64,000 bases of DNA from Nocardioides seonyuensis. GTDB taxonomy: Bacteria; Actinomycetota; Actinomycetes; Propionibacteriales; Nocardioidaceae. The stretch covers positions 124,001-188,000 of the forward strand of contig NZ_CP038436.1 in NCBI RefSeq assembly GCF_004683965.1, given 5' to 3'. A model generated the notes under the pieces. The model worked only from the letters and a program-made list of their open reading frames with translations, did not search any database and had not been told where the DNA came from. Positions 29,818 through 38,350 of this stretch are shown here, one piece after another. The number at the start of each line of letters is the position of its first letter. The first letter of the stretch is position 1. A program made the position numbers and the translations under genes.

Positions 29818-32409
29818 TCAGGCGCCGAGCACGGTGAAGGACGCGGCGGTGGCAGCCAGCACGGGCTCCCGCGCAGCCTGGTCACGAGCCGCCAGCAACG
29901 CCTCACCGAGGCCGGAGCCCTCGCGCAGCCCGCGGTGGAGGGCGACCATCACTTCCACGGTGGCGGCATCGTCGACCTCCGCGAGGCTCGAGACCACTCC
30001 GGCAGTGCCCATCGACAGCAGCGCCGACGCCAGCCCGAGGAGCTCATGGGCACCCACCGGCTGCATCACGCCGGACTCGCAGGCGGAGAGCACCACCCGG
30101 TGCGGAGGGCGACGCAGCCGTTGCAGGTCGTGCACCACCAACGGGCCGTCGGCCATGTCGAGCGAGGAGAAGAGAGGACTGTCGCTCCGGAAGTGGCCGT
30201 GAGCGGCCACGTGCACCAGGTCTGCGCCCTCCAGCGCGGCCAGAGATGCCTCGACCGTCGCCCCCGAACCGGTCAGGATCCTGGCTCGGTCGTCCTGGGA
30301 TGCCACCACCGGCACCTCGGCTCCACCCGAGGCCAGCCCAGGTCCGACGAGGAACACGCGCCGGGCGTCCTGTGGCCCCTGGGCCCCACGGGCCCGCAGC
30401 CAGAGTCGAGCCGACGGCGTGGTGGTGAAAGCCCGTCGTGCCAGGGCTGGCAGCAGTCCCCAGGGCACGTCCTGGAGAGTGCTCGGAGCACACACCACCA
30501 CCCGATCGGCGCGGAGCTCGCGCACGGCTGGACCCAGCAGCGCTCTCTCGAGCCGGGCCCCTGCCATCTCCAGGCGCGAGCTGCTGGCGCCGCGGACTGT
30601 CTGCCGGAGGGCGAACCGGGCGAAGTCCACCGCGGCACGGGCAGCACTCGCCCCACCGACGGCATGCTGGCGGACCCGGCCGTGCCCGGCGACGAGCACG
30701 TGCAGGTGGCCCTCGACCTCGAGCAGCTCCAACAGCACCGCATCGTCCTGTGCCAGGGCAGCGAGCAAGGCATCCGCGGAGAAGTACGACGACGTGGTCC
30801 CGGTTCCTCGCTCCTGGATCAACCGTTCACGGACGGCTCGTTCGAGCCTGGGGGTCCGTTGCTCCAGGCGCTCGGTGGACTCTCCTTCTGCCCGGGCCTG
30901 GGCCAGCCGCCGGTGGTGCGCACGCAGGGCGGCCAGGTCAGCACCGGTGGCCGCGTCGTGGTCCTGGGTGGCTGGCGGCAGGGTGAGCGCGGTGGCACGC
31001 CACCGCTCGGCCCATCGCAGCAGGCTCCGTGGGCGGCGGGAGTCCAGCGCCGTGCGGGTCGCCAGTGCAGCGAGCTCTGCCCCCTGACCTGACACCAACG
31101 CCCGGAGCTCGTGGCTCCCCAGGGACGCCTGGTGGTCGTCGAGTGCCTGGAGACCGCGGCCGCACGCCCTCAGCACCCCCGTGCTGTTCCCGGCGCGCTC
31201 CCGACGTCGCGCGAGGGCCAGCCAACCGAGCGCCCGGGTCGTGGGCACAGCGGAGTGTCGATGCTCGGCGGCCTCGGCCAGCCACGCGTCCGCCAAGCCC
31301 GCCGCACGTGCCGAGCGAACACGCGAGGCGAGTCGGGCACCCAGCAGGAGTGCCTGCACGAGCTCGGGGGCACGCTCGCCGCGAGCCTCGTCGACGAGTG
31401 CCTCCACTCGCACGAGAAGCGGCCCCGGAGGTTGCTCGTCCTCGGCGCGTGCCCAGATCGACAGCAGCAGCGCGCGCAGACCCCGGACGCGGCGGCCCTG
31501 GGAGCGCAGCATCCGGGCCGCCTCGTCGGCGCTCTCGCAAGCGCGAGCCAGGTCTCCGGACGCGAGCGCGGCCTCGGCGAGGGCCACCAGCAGGTCCGCT
31601 CGCTCGCGAGCCTGCACGGGACGGCCCGTCAGCGCCTGGTGGACCACGTCGAGGGCGTCGGCGGCCAGACCACCGGCGAGGTAGGCGACACAACGGTCGA
31701 CGGCCAGGTCGGGGCTGGTGACGCCGATCCCCTCGAGCCGCGCGGCAGCATCGGCGTACCGGCTGAAGGCCAGGGGCAGGTCTCCGGCGAGGAAGGCCAC
31801 GAAGCCCAGGTTGTGGATGGTGCCCGCGAGGTCGAAGGCGTTGCCCAGCTCCTCGTGGAGCGCACCGGAGGCCTCGAAGGCCCGCCCGGCCGCAGCGAGG
31901 TCTCCGAGTCCTGCTCGGGCATAGCCCTCGAGGTTGAGCGCCCGTGCCTCCCACACCGGGTCTCCGACCTCTGCGAAGACCTGCCCCGCGCGACGCAGGT
32001 CGAGGACGCTCTCCTCGAACCTTGACAGCAGGACGCTCAGCACCCACGCCCGGCGGACCAGCACCGTCGCGCGTCGGACTCCGTCCAGCTCCTCGATGGC
32101 ACGGTCCAGCTGGACGAGCCCCTCGCTGGTGCGACCCGCGGTTGCCAGCGACGCACCCCACGTCGCCCGTACGTCGGCGACCCGCTCGGACTCGCCCGTG
32201 GACTTGGCCAGCCGCAGCGCCTCGCGCAGCTGCTCCAACGATGCGTCGGTCTCGCCCAGGTCACGCAGGACGATGCCGATCGTCTGGTGTGCCAGCGACG
32301 CCACCGCGGCGTCGTCGGTGGTCGCCAGGACCGTCTCGGCGCGCCTTCGCGCCCCTGCCGGGTCGGCGAACAGGGTGCGCAGCAGCTCCTCCGCGTCATC
32401 CCGGTCCAC
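29818..32409 (-). CDS. TPR-CHAT caspase-like protease
   Basis: An 863-residue cytoplasmic protein. Residues about 1-470 form helical TPR-like repeats (examples: EARALNLEGYARAGLGDLA and TIHNLGFVAFLAGDLPLAF). Residues about 545-863 are a CHAT domain, the caspase-like protease fold named after HetF. The catalytic dyad is H737 in VHVAAHGH and C777 in VVLSACESG, both intact; DVPWGLLP is the conserved mid-domain motif. The GTG at 32409 is chosen because AAGGA lies 8 bases upstream and the upstream frame would run through the divergent subtilase gene. It is divergent from the subtilase with 79 bases between. In type III-E CRISPR systems a TPR-CHAT protease cleaves a target bound to a sigma factor; here an ECF sigma gene is three genes away. 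Confidence 0.9.
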   Translation of the reverse strand: MDRDDAEELLRTLFADPAGARRRAETVLATTDDAAVASLAHQTIGIVLRDLGETDASLEQLREALRLAKSTGESERVADVRATWGASLATAGRTSEGLVQLDRAIEELDGVRRATVLVRRAWVLSVLLSRFEESVLDLRRAGQVFAEVGDPVWEARALNLEGYARAGLGDLAAAGRAFEASGALHEELGNAFDLAGTIHNLGFVAFLAGDLPLAFSRYADAAARLEGIGVTSPDLAVDRCVAYLAGGLAADALDVVHQALTGRPVQARERADLLVALAEAALASGDLARACESADEAARMLRSQGRRVRGLRALLLSIWARAEDEQPPGPLLVRVEALVDEARGERAPELVQALLLGARLASRVRSARAAGLADAWLAEAAEHRHSAVPTTRALGWLALARRRERAGNSTGVLRACGRGLQALDDHQASLGSHELRALVSGQGAELAALATRTALDSRRPRSLLRWAERWRATALTLPPATQDHDAATGADLAALRAHHRRLAQARAEGESTERLEQRTPRLERAVRERLIQERGTGTTSSYFSADALLAALAQDDAVLLELLEVEGHLHVLVAGHGRVRQHAVGGASAARAAVDFARFALRQTVRGASSSRLEMAGARLERALLGPAVRELRADRVVVCAPSTLQDVPWGLLPALARRAFTTTPSARLWLRARGAQGPQDARRVFLVGPGLASGGAEVPVVASQDDRARILTGSGATVEASLAALEGADLVHVAAHGHFRSDSPLFSSLDMADGPLVVHDLQRLRRPPHRVVLSACESGVMQPVGAHELLGLASALLSMGTAGVVSSLAEVDDAATVEVMVALHRGLREGSGLGEALLAARDQAAREPVLAATAASFTVLGA

Positions 32410-32475
32410 GATCCCATCCTTGCCGATCCCCCGGCGAGCCGTGCCGATTCCCTGTCCAGCGAAGCGGGGCAGCGC

Positions 32476-32481
32476 TAGCGT
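32476..32481 (+). promoter_or_regulatory. -10 element of the subtilase gene, leaderless arrangement
   Basis: TAGCGT ends 7 bases before the ATG at 32489. No good -35 box or Shine-Dalgarno sequence is visible. Confidence 0.45.
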
Positions 32482-32488
32482 CGGGCAC

Positions 32489-33757
32489 ATGGCAGGCGAT
32501 TGGAAGATCGGCAGTGACCAGCGGCGACGTACCACCGACCAGCTGCGGCAGTTCCGGAGAGCCAACGACGGCGCGGTGGCGTGGGACACCGAGGCCCCCG
32601 CCGACTTCACCTTCCTCTACCACCCCGATCGGGTGCTGGTGCGAGCCGAGCATGCCGATGAGTTCGAGGAGGCGGTCTCCCGGATCGACGGTTTGCTCAA
32701 GGACGCCCCGCAACGCGAGGCAGCGCTGCTCGACGGCGCGCTGCTTCGCTACACGCTGCCGCCCCGGGCGCGCGGCGAGAGCGTGGCGGAGGTGCTCGAC
32801 CTGCTCGAGTCAGAGGGGGCGCTCACACCCGGACGTGTCTCCCCCGACCACTGGGTCCACGTCTCCCCGCAAGGAGGGAGCCTGTGCCCCGCCATCGAGC
32901 CCCTGGAGACCGGACTCACCAAGCCATGGCCGGCCGACTCCTGGCAGGAGCGGGGCGACGAGGTGAGCGTCGTCGTCGTCGACACCGGATGGCACCCACC
33001 GGCGGGCAGTGACCTCCGCACCCCTTGGCTGAAGGGAGTCGAGGGTGACGACGAGCACAACGGCCCCGACCTGCGTCAGTACGCCGGCCACGGCACCTTC
33101 ATCGCCGGGGTGGTGCGGTGCATCGCTCCGCGCACCTCGATCTTCGTCGAGGGGTTCGCCGTCGACGGTCTCGGTGGAGGTGGTGTCCTGGAGTCCGACC
33201 TGGTGATCCAGCTCGAGGAGGCTCTCAAGCACGAGCCCCGGGTCATCAACCTCTCCGCCGGCTGTCGCACGCGACAGGACCTACCGCCGATCGCGCTCGA
33301 TGTCTTCCACACCACACGGCTGCGCAGACGCGACTGCGTTCTCGTGGCGGCTGCGGGGAACGACTCCACGTCGGCGCCCTTCTGGCCGGCCGCCTTCGAC
33401 TGGGCCGTCGGCGTCGGTTCCCTCGATCGCGACGGGCGCGTGTCGGCGTACTCCAACTTCGGCGTGTCCGCAGACGTCTATGCCCTGGGCCGCAACCTGG
33501 TCAACGCCTTCCCGGACGGCACCTTCGTGTGCCGGGAGACCCCGGACAAGGACGACGTCCGAGTGTTCAGCACCGGGATGGCGCGGTGGAGCGGCACGTC
33601 GTTCGCGGCTCCGGTGGTGGCGGGGCTGATAGCCCTGGAGATCTCCCTGAACGGGTCGAGTGCCCGTGACGCGGCCGACGCCGTGCTGGCGCGGTCGGTC
33701 TACGACTCCGACCCCGGGGTGGGTCCGATCCAGGTGCTGGGCCCGCCCTACTCCTGA
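32489..33757 (+). CDS. Cytoplasmic subtilisin-like (S8) serine protease
   Basis: A 422-residue S8 protease. The triad is complete: D165 (VVVVDTGWH), H201 (YAGHGTFIAGVV), S371 (WSGTSFAAPVVAG), with oxyanion N291 (AAAGND). There is no signal peptide; the protein starts MAGDWKIGSDQRRRTTDQ, so it should stay in the cytoplasm. Residues 1-150 are a domain I do not recognise, with a region (about 45-125) that may act as an inhibitor-like prodomain: FLYHPDRVLVRAE is reminiscent of I9-type propeptides. It is divergent from the TPR-CHAT gene and its last 10 bases overlap the convergent 164-residue gene. Confidence 0.92.
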   Translation: MAGDWKIGSDQRRRTTDQLRQFRRANDGAVAWDTEAPADFTFLYHPDRVLVRAEHADEFEEAVSRIDGLLKDAPQREAALLDGALLRYTLPPRARGESVAEVLDLLESEGALTPGRVSPDHWVHVSPQGGSLCPAIEPLETGLTKPWPADSWQERGDEVSVVVVDTGWHPPAGSDLRTPWLKGVEGDDEHNGPDLRQYAGHGTFIAGVVRCIAPRTSIFVEGFAVDGLGGGGVLESDLVIQLEEALKHEPRVINLSAGCRTRQDLPPIALDVFHTTRLRRRDCVLVAAAGNDSTSAPFWPAAFDWAVGVGSLDRDGRVSAYSNFGVSADVYALGRNLVNAFPDGTFVCRETPDKDDVRVFSTGMARWSGTSFAAPVVAGLIALEISLNGSSARDAADAVLARSVYDSDPGVGPIQVLGPPYS

Positions 33758-34242
33758 CCGGGCGCGCTCCTCGATCCCTGGAGCCGCACCCAGCTGCTGA
33801 TCGAGCCCGAGTCCTCGTGGCGGACGCCGAACCTGACAGACCCGGCGACCCTCGTGTCGAGCACGAAGAAGCCCACCTCGTCGAGCCGGGTCGTCCACTC
33901 GCCACCCTCCGCCGTCTCGACGACGACCTCGACGGAGGCCAGGTCGCCCGGGAAGTCGAGCAGCTGGCCCCGCACCCGATCGGCGTCGATCTCGGTCTCC
34001 AGGACCCATCCGTGCAGCCCTGCGAAGTGGAGCACCCGGACGGTGGCGCCTCCCCTGACGCCGGCCGGCGCCTCGGTGGCCGAGTCGCGCACCAGCTGCA
34101 TCAGCTCCAGCTCGATGTCGAGGTCGAGGTCGGCGGAGGCAACGGCAGCGATCATCCGCTCGACGAGGTCCGTCGGGGGCGGGTCGACCTCGTGCCACAT
34201 CCTGCGCACGTCAGCGAGCACCCGGTCATCTCCGGTGGTCAT
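33748..34242 (-). CDS. Unknown protein coupled to the ECF sigma factor; possible anti-sigma or protease substrate
   Basis: A 164-residue soluble protein with no membrane segment. Its first 55 residues are helical and acidic, with the stretch RRMWHEVDPPPTDLVERMI; residues about 60-160 are beta-rich (VRVLHFAGLHGWVLETEI, EVVVETAEGGEWTTRLDEVGFFVLD). No catalytic motif is seen. Its ATG overlaps the sigma stop (ATGA), so the two are made together, the usual arrangement of a sigma factor and its regulator. It lacks a zinc HxxxCxxC anti-sigma motif. Inference: it may hold the sigma factor and be cleaved by the CHAT or S8 protease. Confidence 0.8.
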   Translation of the reverse strand: MTTGDDRVLADVRRMWHEVDPPPTDLVERMIAAVASADLDLDIELELMQLVRDSATEAPAGVRGGATVRVLHFAGLHGWVLETEIDADRVRGQLLDFPGDLASVEVVVETAEGGEWTTRLDEVGFFVLDTRVAGSVRFGVRHEDSGSISSWVRLQGSRSAPGQE

Positions 34243-34835
34243 GGCCGACCCTCCTTCGCCAGTGCGGCGCGCAGCTTGTCCAGGCACCTGGCCCGGGTCG
34301 GCCCGATGCTGCCCACGGGCATGTCGAGCTCCCGCCCCAGCGAGGCGTAGTCGGGTCTGTCGAGGAAGGCGATGACGCTGACGAGCCTGCGACAGCGCTC
34401 GTCCAGGCCGGACACCGCCTTCCACAGGCGTGAGCCCTCGTCGTCGAGGACGGCCAGCGCCTCGGCGGAGTCGACGTCGGGCAGCCATGTGGCGAGCGCT
34501 TCGCCCTCGACCGGCTGCGAACGACGGGCGTGTCCGAGGTGGCGGGCCGCGTCGCGCCTGGCTGAGGTGATCAGCCAGGCGGCGACGGCCCCCGGTTCCA
34601 CGATGGTCTGGTGCGACCGGACGAATCCCAACCACGTCGTCTGGACGATGTCCTCAGACGTCTGCCGGTCGTGCCCGTAGGACCGCACCACGTGCCAGAG
34701 CACGGGAGTCATCACCCGGACGAGCTCGTCCACGGCTGCCGCGTCCCCCTGACGCCATGCCGAGAACGCCCCCTTGGCTGCGTCCCACGGTGACTCCTCG
34801 AGTCGCCCCCCAGCGACTCCACGGTGCTCCGTCAT
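34239..34835 (-). CDS. ECF-type RNA polymerase sigma factor
   Basis: A 198-residue sigma factor with region 2 (about 30-100: DELVRVMTPVLWHVVRSYG, TSEDIVQTTWLGFVR, WLITSARRDAARHLG) and region 4 (about 135-190: LDERCRRLVSVIAFLDRPDYASLGRELDMPVGSIGPTRARCLDKLR). Region 3 is absent, as expected for ECF. The start is uncertain: ATGs at 34853, 34844 and 34835 are in frame. 34835 (MTEHRG) is preferred because GACAAT lies 7 bases upstream; 34853 would add six residues. It overlaps the unknown regulator-like gene. No membrane anti-sigma gene is adjacent. Confidence 0.93.
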   Translation of the reverse strand: MTEHRGVAGGRLEESPWDAAKGAFSAWRQGDAAAVDELVRVMTPVLWHVVRSYGHDRQTSEDIVQTTWLGFVRSHQTIVEPGAVAAWLITSARRDAARHLGHARRSQPVEGEALATWLPDVDSAEALAVLDDEGSRLWKAVSGLDERCRRLVSVIAFLDRPDYASLGRELDMPVGSIGPTRARCLDKLRAALAKEGRP

Positions 34836-34859
34836 GACCACCATTGTCCCCATGCCATC

Positions 34860-34885
34860 TCAGGAGTGGGCAGCACCTCTCCTGA
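34860..34885 (-). promoter_or_regulatory. Hairpin upstream of the ECF sigma gene
   Basis: TCAGGAG (34860-34866) and CTCCTGA (34879-34885) form a 7-bp inverted repeat around a 12-base loop. It could be an operator or an mRNA hairpin. No ECF-style GGAAC/GTC promoter is seen. Confidence 0.3.
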
Positions 34886-34935
34886 TACGTCGGCCTTGAA
34901 ACCGCCCCCAGTGGTCCAGACCAGCACGAGGCGGG

Positions 34936-36988: not shown

Positions 36989-38350
36989 TCAGCCGGCGAG
37001 GTGGAGCGGCACGATCAGGTCGCCCAGGATCAGCACGACCCCCATCACCAGCATCGCGAGCCCGACGACATAGGCCACCGGCAGCAGCTTGGCCACGTCG
37101 ACGTGCCCGGGATCAGGCCGTCCGAACAGTCGGGCCAGGCCGCGACGCAGGGCCTCGAACAGCGCCCCGGCGATGTGGCCACCGTCCAGCGGGAGAAGCG
37201 GGACGAAGTTGAACATCCCGATGAAGAAGTTGAAGGAGGCGATCAGGGTCAGGAGGAAGAGCAGCCGGTCGGTGACGTCGACGGACGTGTCGGACGCCGC
37301 CTCACCCGCGAACCTGCCGCCGCCGACAATGCTCACCGGGCTGTCGATCGCCCGCTCCTCGAGGCCCAGGATGGCCTGGCCGACGTCGTAGACCTTGAGC
37401 GGCAGGGTGCCGAGGGCCTGGACGGTGTCGACCGTCATGTGGCCCATCTGCTCCAGGGTGAAGAGGACGCCGCCGGTCTCGGTCACGATGCGCGTGCGCG
37501 GGGACACCCCGAGGAACCCGACCTGGCGCAGGGTGGCGTCGTCGGCGGAGGTGGGGCGGGCCGTCACCGTGGTGTTGGTCGTCACCTCCGTGGGCTTGCC
37601 GTCGCGCACCAGGCCGATGACCGCGCGGCCGTCGTCGTTGGCGCGGATCAGCTCCTGGAGCTGCGACCACTCCTCGATCTCCGTGCCGTTGAGCGAGACG
37701 ATCCGGTCGCCGACCCTGATCCCCGAGGCGCGCGCCGGGGCGACCGGGTCGTCCTCGGTGCACTCGCGACCGCTCTCCGAGGCGGGTACGACGCAGTCGG
37801 CGACGTAGTCGACCACCGGCTGCCCCGGGACCGCTTCCTGGGTCTTGATGCCGACGGTGGCGAAGATCCCGAGGAAGATGAGGAACGCGATGGTGATGTT
37901 GACGGTCGGACCACCCGCCATCACGATCACCTTCTGCCACCACGGCAGGCGGTAGAAGAGCTTGTCGGCGTCGTGCTCCTTGACGTACTCCCACTCCGCC
38001 GCACGCGCGTCGGAGATGAGCTGGGTGAACATGCCGGTGTTGGAGCGGCGCACCCGGTGGACCGGCTCGCCGTCCTCGTCGTAGGTGGTCTCCTCCACCA
38101 GCTCCTCGGCCCCTGGCGGGAGCATGCCGACGATCTTCACGTAGCCGCCGAGCGGGATCGCCTTGACGCCGTACTCGGTCTCACCGATCTGCCTGCTCCA
38201 CACCGTGGGCCCGAAGCCGATGAACCACTGCGGGACCTTGGCGCCGAACTTCTTCGCCGGGACCAGGTGGCCGAGCTCGTGGAGACCGATCGAGACCAGG
38301 ATCGCCAGCACGAACGCCAGCACGCCGAGCGTGTAGAGGAGCGCGGTCAT
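36989..38350 (-). CDS. rip1: Site-2 zinc metalloprotease (RseP/Rip1 family)
   Basis: A 453-residue membrane protease that cuts transmembrane anti-sigma factors and other targets inside the membrane. It has HELGH (H24, E25, H28) in the first helix, a PDZ domain (about 190-280) and the second metal motif in FNFVPLLPLDGGHIAG near residue 400, with four predicted helices. In mycobacteria Rip1 controls several ECF sigma factors. The ATG overlaps the dxr stop by 4 bases. The ECF sigma factor in this window has no membrane anti-sigma partner, so a link to it is not obvious. Confidence 0.96.
   Translation of the reverse strand: MTALLYTLGVLAFVLAILVSIGLHELGHLVPAKKFGAKVPQWFIGFGPTVWSRQIGETEYGVKAIPLGGYVKIVGMLPPGAEELVEETTYDEDGEPVHRVRRSNTGMFTQLISDARAAEWEYVKEHDADKLFYRLPWWQKVIVMAGGPTVNITIAFLIFLGIFATVGIKTQEAVPGQPVVDYVADCVVPASESGRECTEDDPVAPARASGIRVGDRIVSLNGTEIEEWSQLQELIRANDDGRAVIGLVRDGKPTEVTTNTTVTARPTSADDATLRQVGFLGVSPRTRIVTETGGVLFTLEQMGHMTVDTVQALGTLPLKVYDVGQAILGLEERAIDSPVSIVGGGRFAGEAASDTSVDVTDRLLFLLTLIASFNFFIGMFNFVPLLPLDGGHIAGALFEALRRGLARLFGRPDPGHVDVAKLLPVAYVVGLAMLVMGVVLILGDLIVPLHLAG

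Follow-up and report, generated by a model that had tools for sequence, protein, structure and literature searches.

A conserved cassette of an ECF sigma factor, a two-part protein and a TPR-CHAT protease in actinobacteria: a candidate soluble sigma switch

Introduction

Can an extracytoplasmic function (ECF) sigma factor be held and then freed by proteolysis in the cytoplasm, outside any CRISPR system? Regulated proteolysis of anti-sigma factors is known mostly at the membrane (RseA, RsiW) or within CRISPR systems. The question is raised by a locus of Nocardioides seonyuensis, where the gene of an ECF-type sigma factor is found with genes for a 164-residue protein (here termed U164), a TPR-CHAT protease and a probably intracellular subtilase of family S8. 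The locus lies in what is termed the window, a stretch of 64,000 nucleotides (bases 124001-188000) of a complete, single-contig genome of 3.97 Mb (NZ_CP038436.1).

The four genes are a real conserved unit. There is about an even chance that this unit is a cytoplasmic, CRISPR-free switch, in which U164 would be a soluble anti-sigma factor that is cut at Arg63 by the CHAT protease, with release of the sigma factor.

Conservation of the four genes

The original prediction, made from the window alone, saw the four families as a conserved unit and staked this on their co-occurrence in other genomes. They do recur together: all four genes are present in 178 of 248 U164 regions, or 176 of 219 when short loci are set aside (29 of the 250 regions, L219-L247, are 2.7-3.5 kb in length and too short for the whole cassette). 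By set, all four are found in 22 of 23 regions including the window, for 50 of 66 U164 genes (63 regions), in 74 of 80 named loci (six with an extra match included) and in 53 of 78 regions of the class search. The 80 named loci were the top-ranking ones of 565 in sigma similarity, and therefore this set favours close relatives. From the class search, 29 new places were taken as short loci and 78 as longer regions, the rest being already covered or left out.

The order of the genes is not fixed. Thirteen layouts occur among the 164 regions with exactly one copy of each gene, and since the layouts are reshuffled while the four genes keep company, a functional unit is indicated rather than a mere inherited order. 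A same-strand sigma gene overlaps U164 or is at most 200 bases away in 239 of 251 cases, 90 of them with a 4-base overlap. For the remaining U164 genes, sigma is farther away in two, and 10 are without such a sigma in the fetched region, a number in which contig ends are not sorted out.

U164 and CHAT of this kind are present in the same 24 of 39 genomes (relatives plus the window genome), the 15 others having weak matches or none. Both or neither are thus found in 39 of 39 (U164 profile E < 1e-20, CHAT E < 1e-30; Fisher 4e-11, with kinship ignored). In 396 genomes of the phylum, U164 is found in 33 and CHAT in 38 at E < 1e-15 and E <= 1e-60, respectively: both in 30, U164 only in three, CHAT only in eight and neither in 355 (Fisher 2.4e-34). 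All three U164-only genomes are draft assemblies with contig numbers between 240 and 590; in G337, part of a CHAT gene is present at the edge of a contig. Of the eight CHAT-only genomes, four have a weak U164 match adjoining CHAT and four have none.

A divergent branch (G091, G222, G244 and G409, family f21) has CHAT matches of E 5e-61 to 7e-77 beside U164 matches of 4e-5 to 6e-8, and L118 (G233, also f21) has all four genes when widened profiles are used. The family is thus wider than counted. A search of genome contigs with the U164 sequence alone found no relative.

Arrangement in the window

Re-reading of the open reading frames gives the genes, strands and junctions that had been described. 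The sigma gene (34239..34853, minus strand) encodes sigma2 and sigma4 regions (Sigma70_r2 2.6e-10, Pfam) and has in-frame ATG codons at 34853, 34844 and 34835; sigma4 carries the family signature GSIGPTRxRCL. It is joined by an ATGA overlap to the U164 gene (33748..34242), also on the minus strand. The S8 gene (32489..33757, plus strand) points toward U164, with a 10-base overlap between the two. S8 and the CHAT gene (29818..32409, minus strand, with the start taken as GTG 32409) diverge across a gap of 79 bases (32410..32488).

Both proteases are intact, as had been stated, and this holds family-wide. The S8 protein (Peptidase_S8 8.5e-24, Pfam) has ~155 residues before the Pfam domain, and its Asp165, His201 and Ser371 are conserved in 196 of 196 family members. 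The CHAT protein (CHAT 5.7e-28, Pfam), in which TPR_12 falls just below the cut-off (28.1 vs 30.1 bits), has His737 and Cys777, both conserved in 181 of 183 aligned members. The exceptions are L250, truncated by a contig end, and L188, which is split into two open reading frames. These counts left out CHAT proteins of <600 residues and S8 proteins of <250 residues. A strongly hydrophobic 19-residue stretch is absent from U164 (maximum 1.11) and from sigma (1.17). On the same crude scale, the maxima are 1.61 for S8 and 1.56 for CHAT, from which both proteases are predicted as likely not exported and cytoplasmic.

Structure of U164 and its linker arginine

Structural modelling predicts a U164 in which three helices are followed by a disordered linker and then by an Ig-like beta-sandwich. 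The AlphaFold2 model has helices at residues 2-19, 26-36 and 41-56 and beta-sandwich strands at 69-148 (mean predicted local distance difference test score, pLDDT, 75; predicted template modelling score, pTM, 0.54), with pLDDT <50 at residues 53-67. The model of a second member, P0121, which is 30% identical to the window U164, has the same architecture, and its low-confidence stretch is 39-61 (mean pLDDT 78, pTM 0.55). The N-terminal domain of class I anti-sigma factors is given in PMC7406223 as helices 1-3 plus a linked fourth; in the two AlphaFold2 models the N-terminal half of U164 has three predicted helices and no fourth. The best Foldseek matches of U164 are mostly Ig-like or FN3 domains and are weak (best E 3.8e-3; none at 0.001).

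The linker (residues 53-67, codons 34042..34086 on the minus strand) contains the candidate cleavage site, Arg63, whose codon is 34054-34056. After removal of identical copies (251 to 246 sequences), Arg63 is conserved in 245 of the 246 distinct U164 sequences, and the linker varies in length around it, with 4-13 residues before and 8-32 after. As MAFFT could force an arginine into register, ungapped linkers were tested. The pattern [VATLIM]R[GSATDQ] is found in 243 of 246 linkers (shuffled mean 106, maximum 128), and in 106 of 108 when sequences are thinned to <50% identity (shuffled mean 49, maximum 65). A shift splits the arginine column of one automatically made alignment (A8), leaving 37 of 55 in it. 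The arginine, residue 60 in P0121, falls in the low-confidence stretch of both models.

Relation to known systems

The possibility had been left open that the association is known under another name, and so it is: the synteny around ECF54 sigma factors has already been described. The section on this group in PMC8999054 describes an ECF sigma factor whose conserved gene context includes carboxypeptidase, subtilase and CHAT domain proteins, and explains it by proteolysis, with no anti-sigma factor involved. Genes of carboxypeptidase type, subtilase and CHAT are found here as well, and putative membership in ECF54 is judged from this gene context and not from a group model. The window U164 has no Pfam, NCBIfam or PADLOC match. 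CarboxypepD_reg, a regulatory-like beta-sandwich domain, is matched by 13 of 20 family members (best 1.8e-5), the window member not being among them. U164 as a carboxypeptidase enzyme is rejected, as there is no peptidase match. The ECF54 "carboxypeptidase" is probably U164, and differs from that description in being a two-part protein without an enzyme domain, which adjoins sigma and has a conserved linker arginine.

In open-licence full text, ECF54 is treated as a subject only in PMC8999054, and no description of a U164-type protein as an anti-sigma factor was found in the open-licence papers searched; an earlier description elsewhere is possible. Four points appear to be new: what kind of protein U164 is, the conservation of its linker arginine, the division into core and accessory parts and a promoter-like motif, described below.

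The parallel that had been drawn with type III-E CRISPR is a real one. As described for Craspase in PMC10028731, Csx29 cleaves Csx30, a protein of two domains and a cleaved loop that binds and inhibits an ECF sigma factor. In both the type III-E system (Csx29, Csx30 and CASP-sigma) and the cassette, a single locus encodes a TPR-CHAT protein with a His/Cys dyad, a two-domain protein and an ECF sigma factor. They differ in that the cassette is outside a CRISPR locus, has S8, and has a candidate substrate of 164 residues as against 565. The CHAT protein does not score as Csx29 (28.1 bits vs a cut-off of 300). The six flanking genes scanned with Pfam are housekeeping or DoxX-like, and Cas1 was not found in the window genome (control genomes were positive in 9 of 14; Cas7-11 and repeat arrays were not searched). 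The cassette is therefore not in a CRISPR locus, in agreement with the CRISPR-free version that had been proposed.

Two further systems show a partial resemblance. CalpL-CalpT-CalpS, the Lon protease system of type III CRISPR, also joins a protease, a protein acted on and a sigma factor. Its protease is of another class, and the trigger is a cyclic nucleotide. The EACC1 and EACC2 caspase systems, as outlined in PMC8195603, have a caspase-fold protease beside an ECF sigma factor and TPR proteins. They are also described there as having a constant EACC domain and variable C-terminal parts, and the cassette proteins show no such Pfam match.

Core and accessory components

The original prediction placed a pair of proteases at the centre of the unit. 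This appears to hold for CHAT and not for S8. Sixteen regions hold sigma, U164 and CHAT without S8 (L084, L244, L294 and perhaps others being cut short). Eleven of these S8-less regions, all of family f92, were inspected and their genomes searched whole with the S8 profile. S8 of this type is missing at E 1e-20 in 10 of the 11 genomes, and the eleventh, G669, has two copies elsewhere; comparison genomes (the window genome and two f92 genomes) were positive in 3 of 3. S8 as an essential part is thus rejected.

Eleven genomes have a U164 region without CHAT or S8, and in two of these a sigma match is also missing there. In nine of the 11, a family CHAT is encoded elsewhere in the genome (E < 1e-100). 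Two of the nine distant CHATs are contig-end pieces, and two (G033, G080) are beside a further whole cassette. No other protease that might replace CHAT was found in nine neighbour genes at eight loci of lone sigma-U164 pairs, the exceptions being L083, with a TldD-like metallopeptidase gene, and L101, with a weak NAL1_N match below the cut-off. From the S8-less cassettes in S8-free genomes and the distant CHAT in nine of 11 protease-less cases, the core appears to consist of sigma, U164 and CHAT, with S8 as an accessory, dispensable component. The activator role that had been suggested for S8 found no support, although no test was aimed at it.

Promoter-like motif

The motif GTATCA-N16-C[AT]CCT is found upstream of sigma in 72 of 237 regions, and the reversed motif in 0 of 237 (one sigma per region, with those that start <300 bases from the region end dropped). 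It is present in 60 of 102 regions of the two commonest sigma-first layouts, and in 0 of 24 with the layout CHAT< S8> SIG> U164>. The reversed pattern has one match in 3.1 Mb of regions. In the window, a pattern search places GTATCA-N16-CTCCT at 34862..34888 on the minus strand. This is the sole strict match in the genome, where the reversed control also gives one match; over 39 genomes there are 57 matches vs 26 for the reversed control. To judge from the spacing, transcription may start at ATG 34853 or close to it. In a cluster of seven loci, the gene after the motif is by position an operon-opening S8 gene (six loci checked).

The sigma motif was not found in the CHAT/S8 gap of the window. 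Just before the S8 start is GCTAGCGTCG (32474-32483), which close relatives share with small changes and which is unlike the sigma motif. The proteases may therefore be made beforehand.

A possible switch and its alternatives

The proposal that U164 binds sigma and is cut at Arg63 is made by analogy with Csx30, where two domains, a cleaved loop and a blocked ECF sigma factor come together. The helical N-terminal half of U164 would hold the sigma factor, whose gene immediately precedes that of U164. CHAT would be activated by a trigger that acts on its TPR part and might then cut U164 after Arg63, in the hinge between the halves. The N-terminal piece would release sigma or be degraded, and freed sigma would transcribe its own operon from GTATCA-N16-C[AT]CCT, which would amount to positive feedback. 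S8 might act as an accessory second step. CHAT is most likely the better candidate than S8 for the cutting of U164, to judge from the persistence of Arg63 in S8-less cassettes (16 of 16).

A broader form of this proposal is that the logic of Csx29, Csx30 and CASP-sigma applies throughout the phylum, with CHAT cutting U164 at the conserved arginine, sigma feeding back on its motif and, in Microbacterium-type loci, sigma also driving a small RNA after CHAT. This is plausible, if somewhat short of an even chance. If true, a widespread soluble version with a single conserved cut site in ordinary actinobacterial chromosomes would raise the question of whether CRISPR type III-E borrowed an older module. 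The ECF sigma group would also gain a mechanism that hinges on one residue and is directly testable, and the view that ECF54-type sigma factors have no anti-sigma factor would be corrected.

Several points speak against the cutting of U164 as a release of sigma. Direct coupling analysis and mutual information for sigma vs U164 show no concentrated interface, in the helical half or elsewhere (238 pairs, with short proteins and pairs >=200 bases apart dropped; effective number 156, 319 columns), and no sigma-U164 fusion was found in 109 loci searched. U164 matches no known anti-sigma domain in Pfam or NCBIfam, and one of 20 relatives touches RsiG (E 0.035). All 36 regions that have only sigma and U164 (18 of them <4 kb) retain Arg63 too, so the residue may have a role other than cutting. 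The strict motif is missing before sigma in 165 of 237 regions, and the co-occurrence thresholds were picked after the results were seen.

The specificity of CHAT is a further such point. According to the comparison in PMC9729208, separase selects P1 Arg via Asp2151, and Craspase has Lys670 there. The equivalent position in this CHAT is near Val818, as placed by alignment and counting past its end, and is variable; an arginine-specific pocket is thus not supported. Asp814, conserved in 180 of 183, is four residues before Val818, and the alignment does not support it as the arginine-selecting residue.

Other explanations have to be set against the proposed switch. In the published ECF54 view there is no anti-sigma factor, and the proteases degrade sigma itself to keep the system off; U164 might then be an adaptor that hands sigma over, with which the adjacency of the two genes is also consistent. 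Sigma degradation without an anti-sigma factor is proposed in the ECF54 section of PMC8999054, and the adaptor role is an addition made here. The view is unlikely, however: the "carboxypeptidase" listed among its proteases most probably corresponds to U164, which shows no enzyme domain, and a conserved arginine in a disordered linker is left unexplained. Alternatively, U164 might be a protease inhibitor or docking protein whose Ig-like half binds CHAT or S8, with Arg63 as the bait of a reactive loop and sigma only setting the expression level. The weak Ig/FN3-like likeness of the beta-sandwich, the small neighbours of the conserved arginine and the association of U164 with CHAT across genomes would all agree with this. 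Reactive-site loops of protease inhibitors are rigid, however, and the loop in U164 varies in length and is predicted to be disordered. In addition, sigma adjoins U164 in nine of the 11 genomes whose U164 region has no proteases, and an inhibitor or docking role seems improbable.

The cassette could also be a defence or cell-death module, in which CHAT and S8 would, when triggered, act as effectors and break down a large number of proteins, the sigma-U164 pair serving only to autoregulate the cassette. There are weak similarities to BovA (1.4e-4), a PADLOC subtilase model (2.5e-10) and IetS (4.2e-7), and presence within the genus is patchy. The cassette has a fixed chromosomal place, however, with ispG and GNAT genes adjoining in 14 of 15 close loci and proS in 14 of 15. 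U164 has no plasmid match, and CHAT has one partial phage match (U164 was not searched in phages). With the absence of the sigma motif from the CHAT/S8 gap of the window as well, a defence role is quite unlikely.

Neighbouring genes and further observations

On the minus strand, the order before sigma is dxr, an M50 site-2 protease gene, gcpE/ispG and a GNAT gene; beyond CHAT are a DoxX-like gene and then proS. The M50 protease (36989-38350), which has a PDZ domain, is the third gene upstream of sigma and lies inside dxr-M50-ispG. It is probably part of the usual housekeeping neighbourhood. The nearest named loci are from Nocardioides, as are most named protein matches.

L092 and L109 have two and three U164 genes, respectively, with two CHAT and two S8 genes within 19 kb. 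These are tandem cassettes, which possibly serve different triggers.

Of 59 further matches of the sigma motif, 36 (counted by eye; not all are from Microbacterium) are second copies that follow the CHAT stop codon by at most 100 bases. In 14 aligned Microbacterium-type loci (e.g. L187 from 13139 onward and L180 from 13328 onward), the second copy leads into a conserved stretch that contains no clear gene and ends in a 13-bp terminator-type hairpin (no shuffle control). The stretch is a candidate for a sigma-driven small RNA. Three of the Microbacterium-type loci have no Rfam match, and no conserved protein gene could be made out behind the second motif in Microbacterium.

In three loci of Nocardioides type (L033 near 3270, minus strand; L211 near 13284 and L193 near 13164, both plus strand), the motif copy behind CHAT lies ahead of related genes that encode 104-112 residues; the L211 member has no Pfam match. 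At L301 (6212, minus strand) and L304 (6540, plus strand), the motif precedes the gene of an 893-residue regulator, of ATPase type as judged by eye, directly behind U164.

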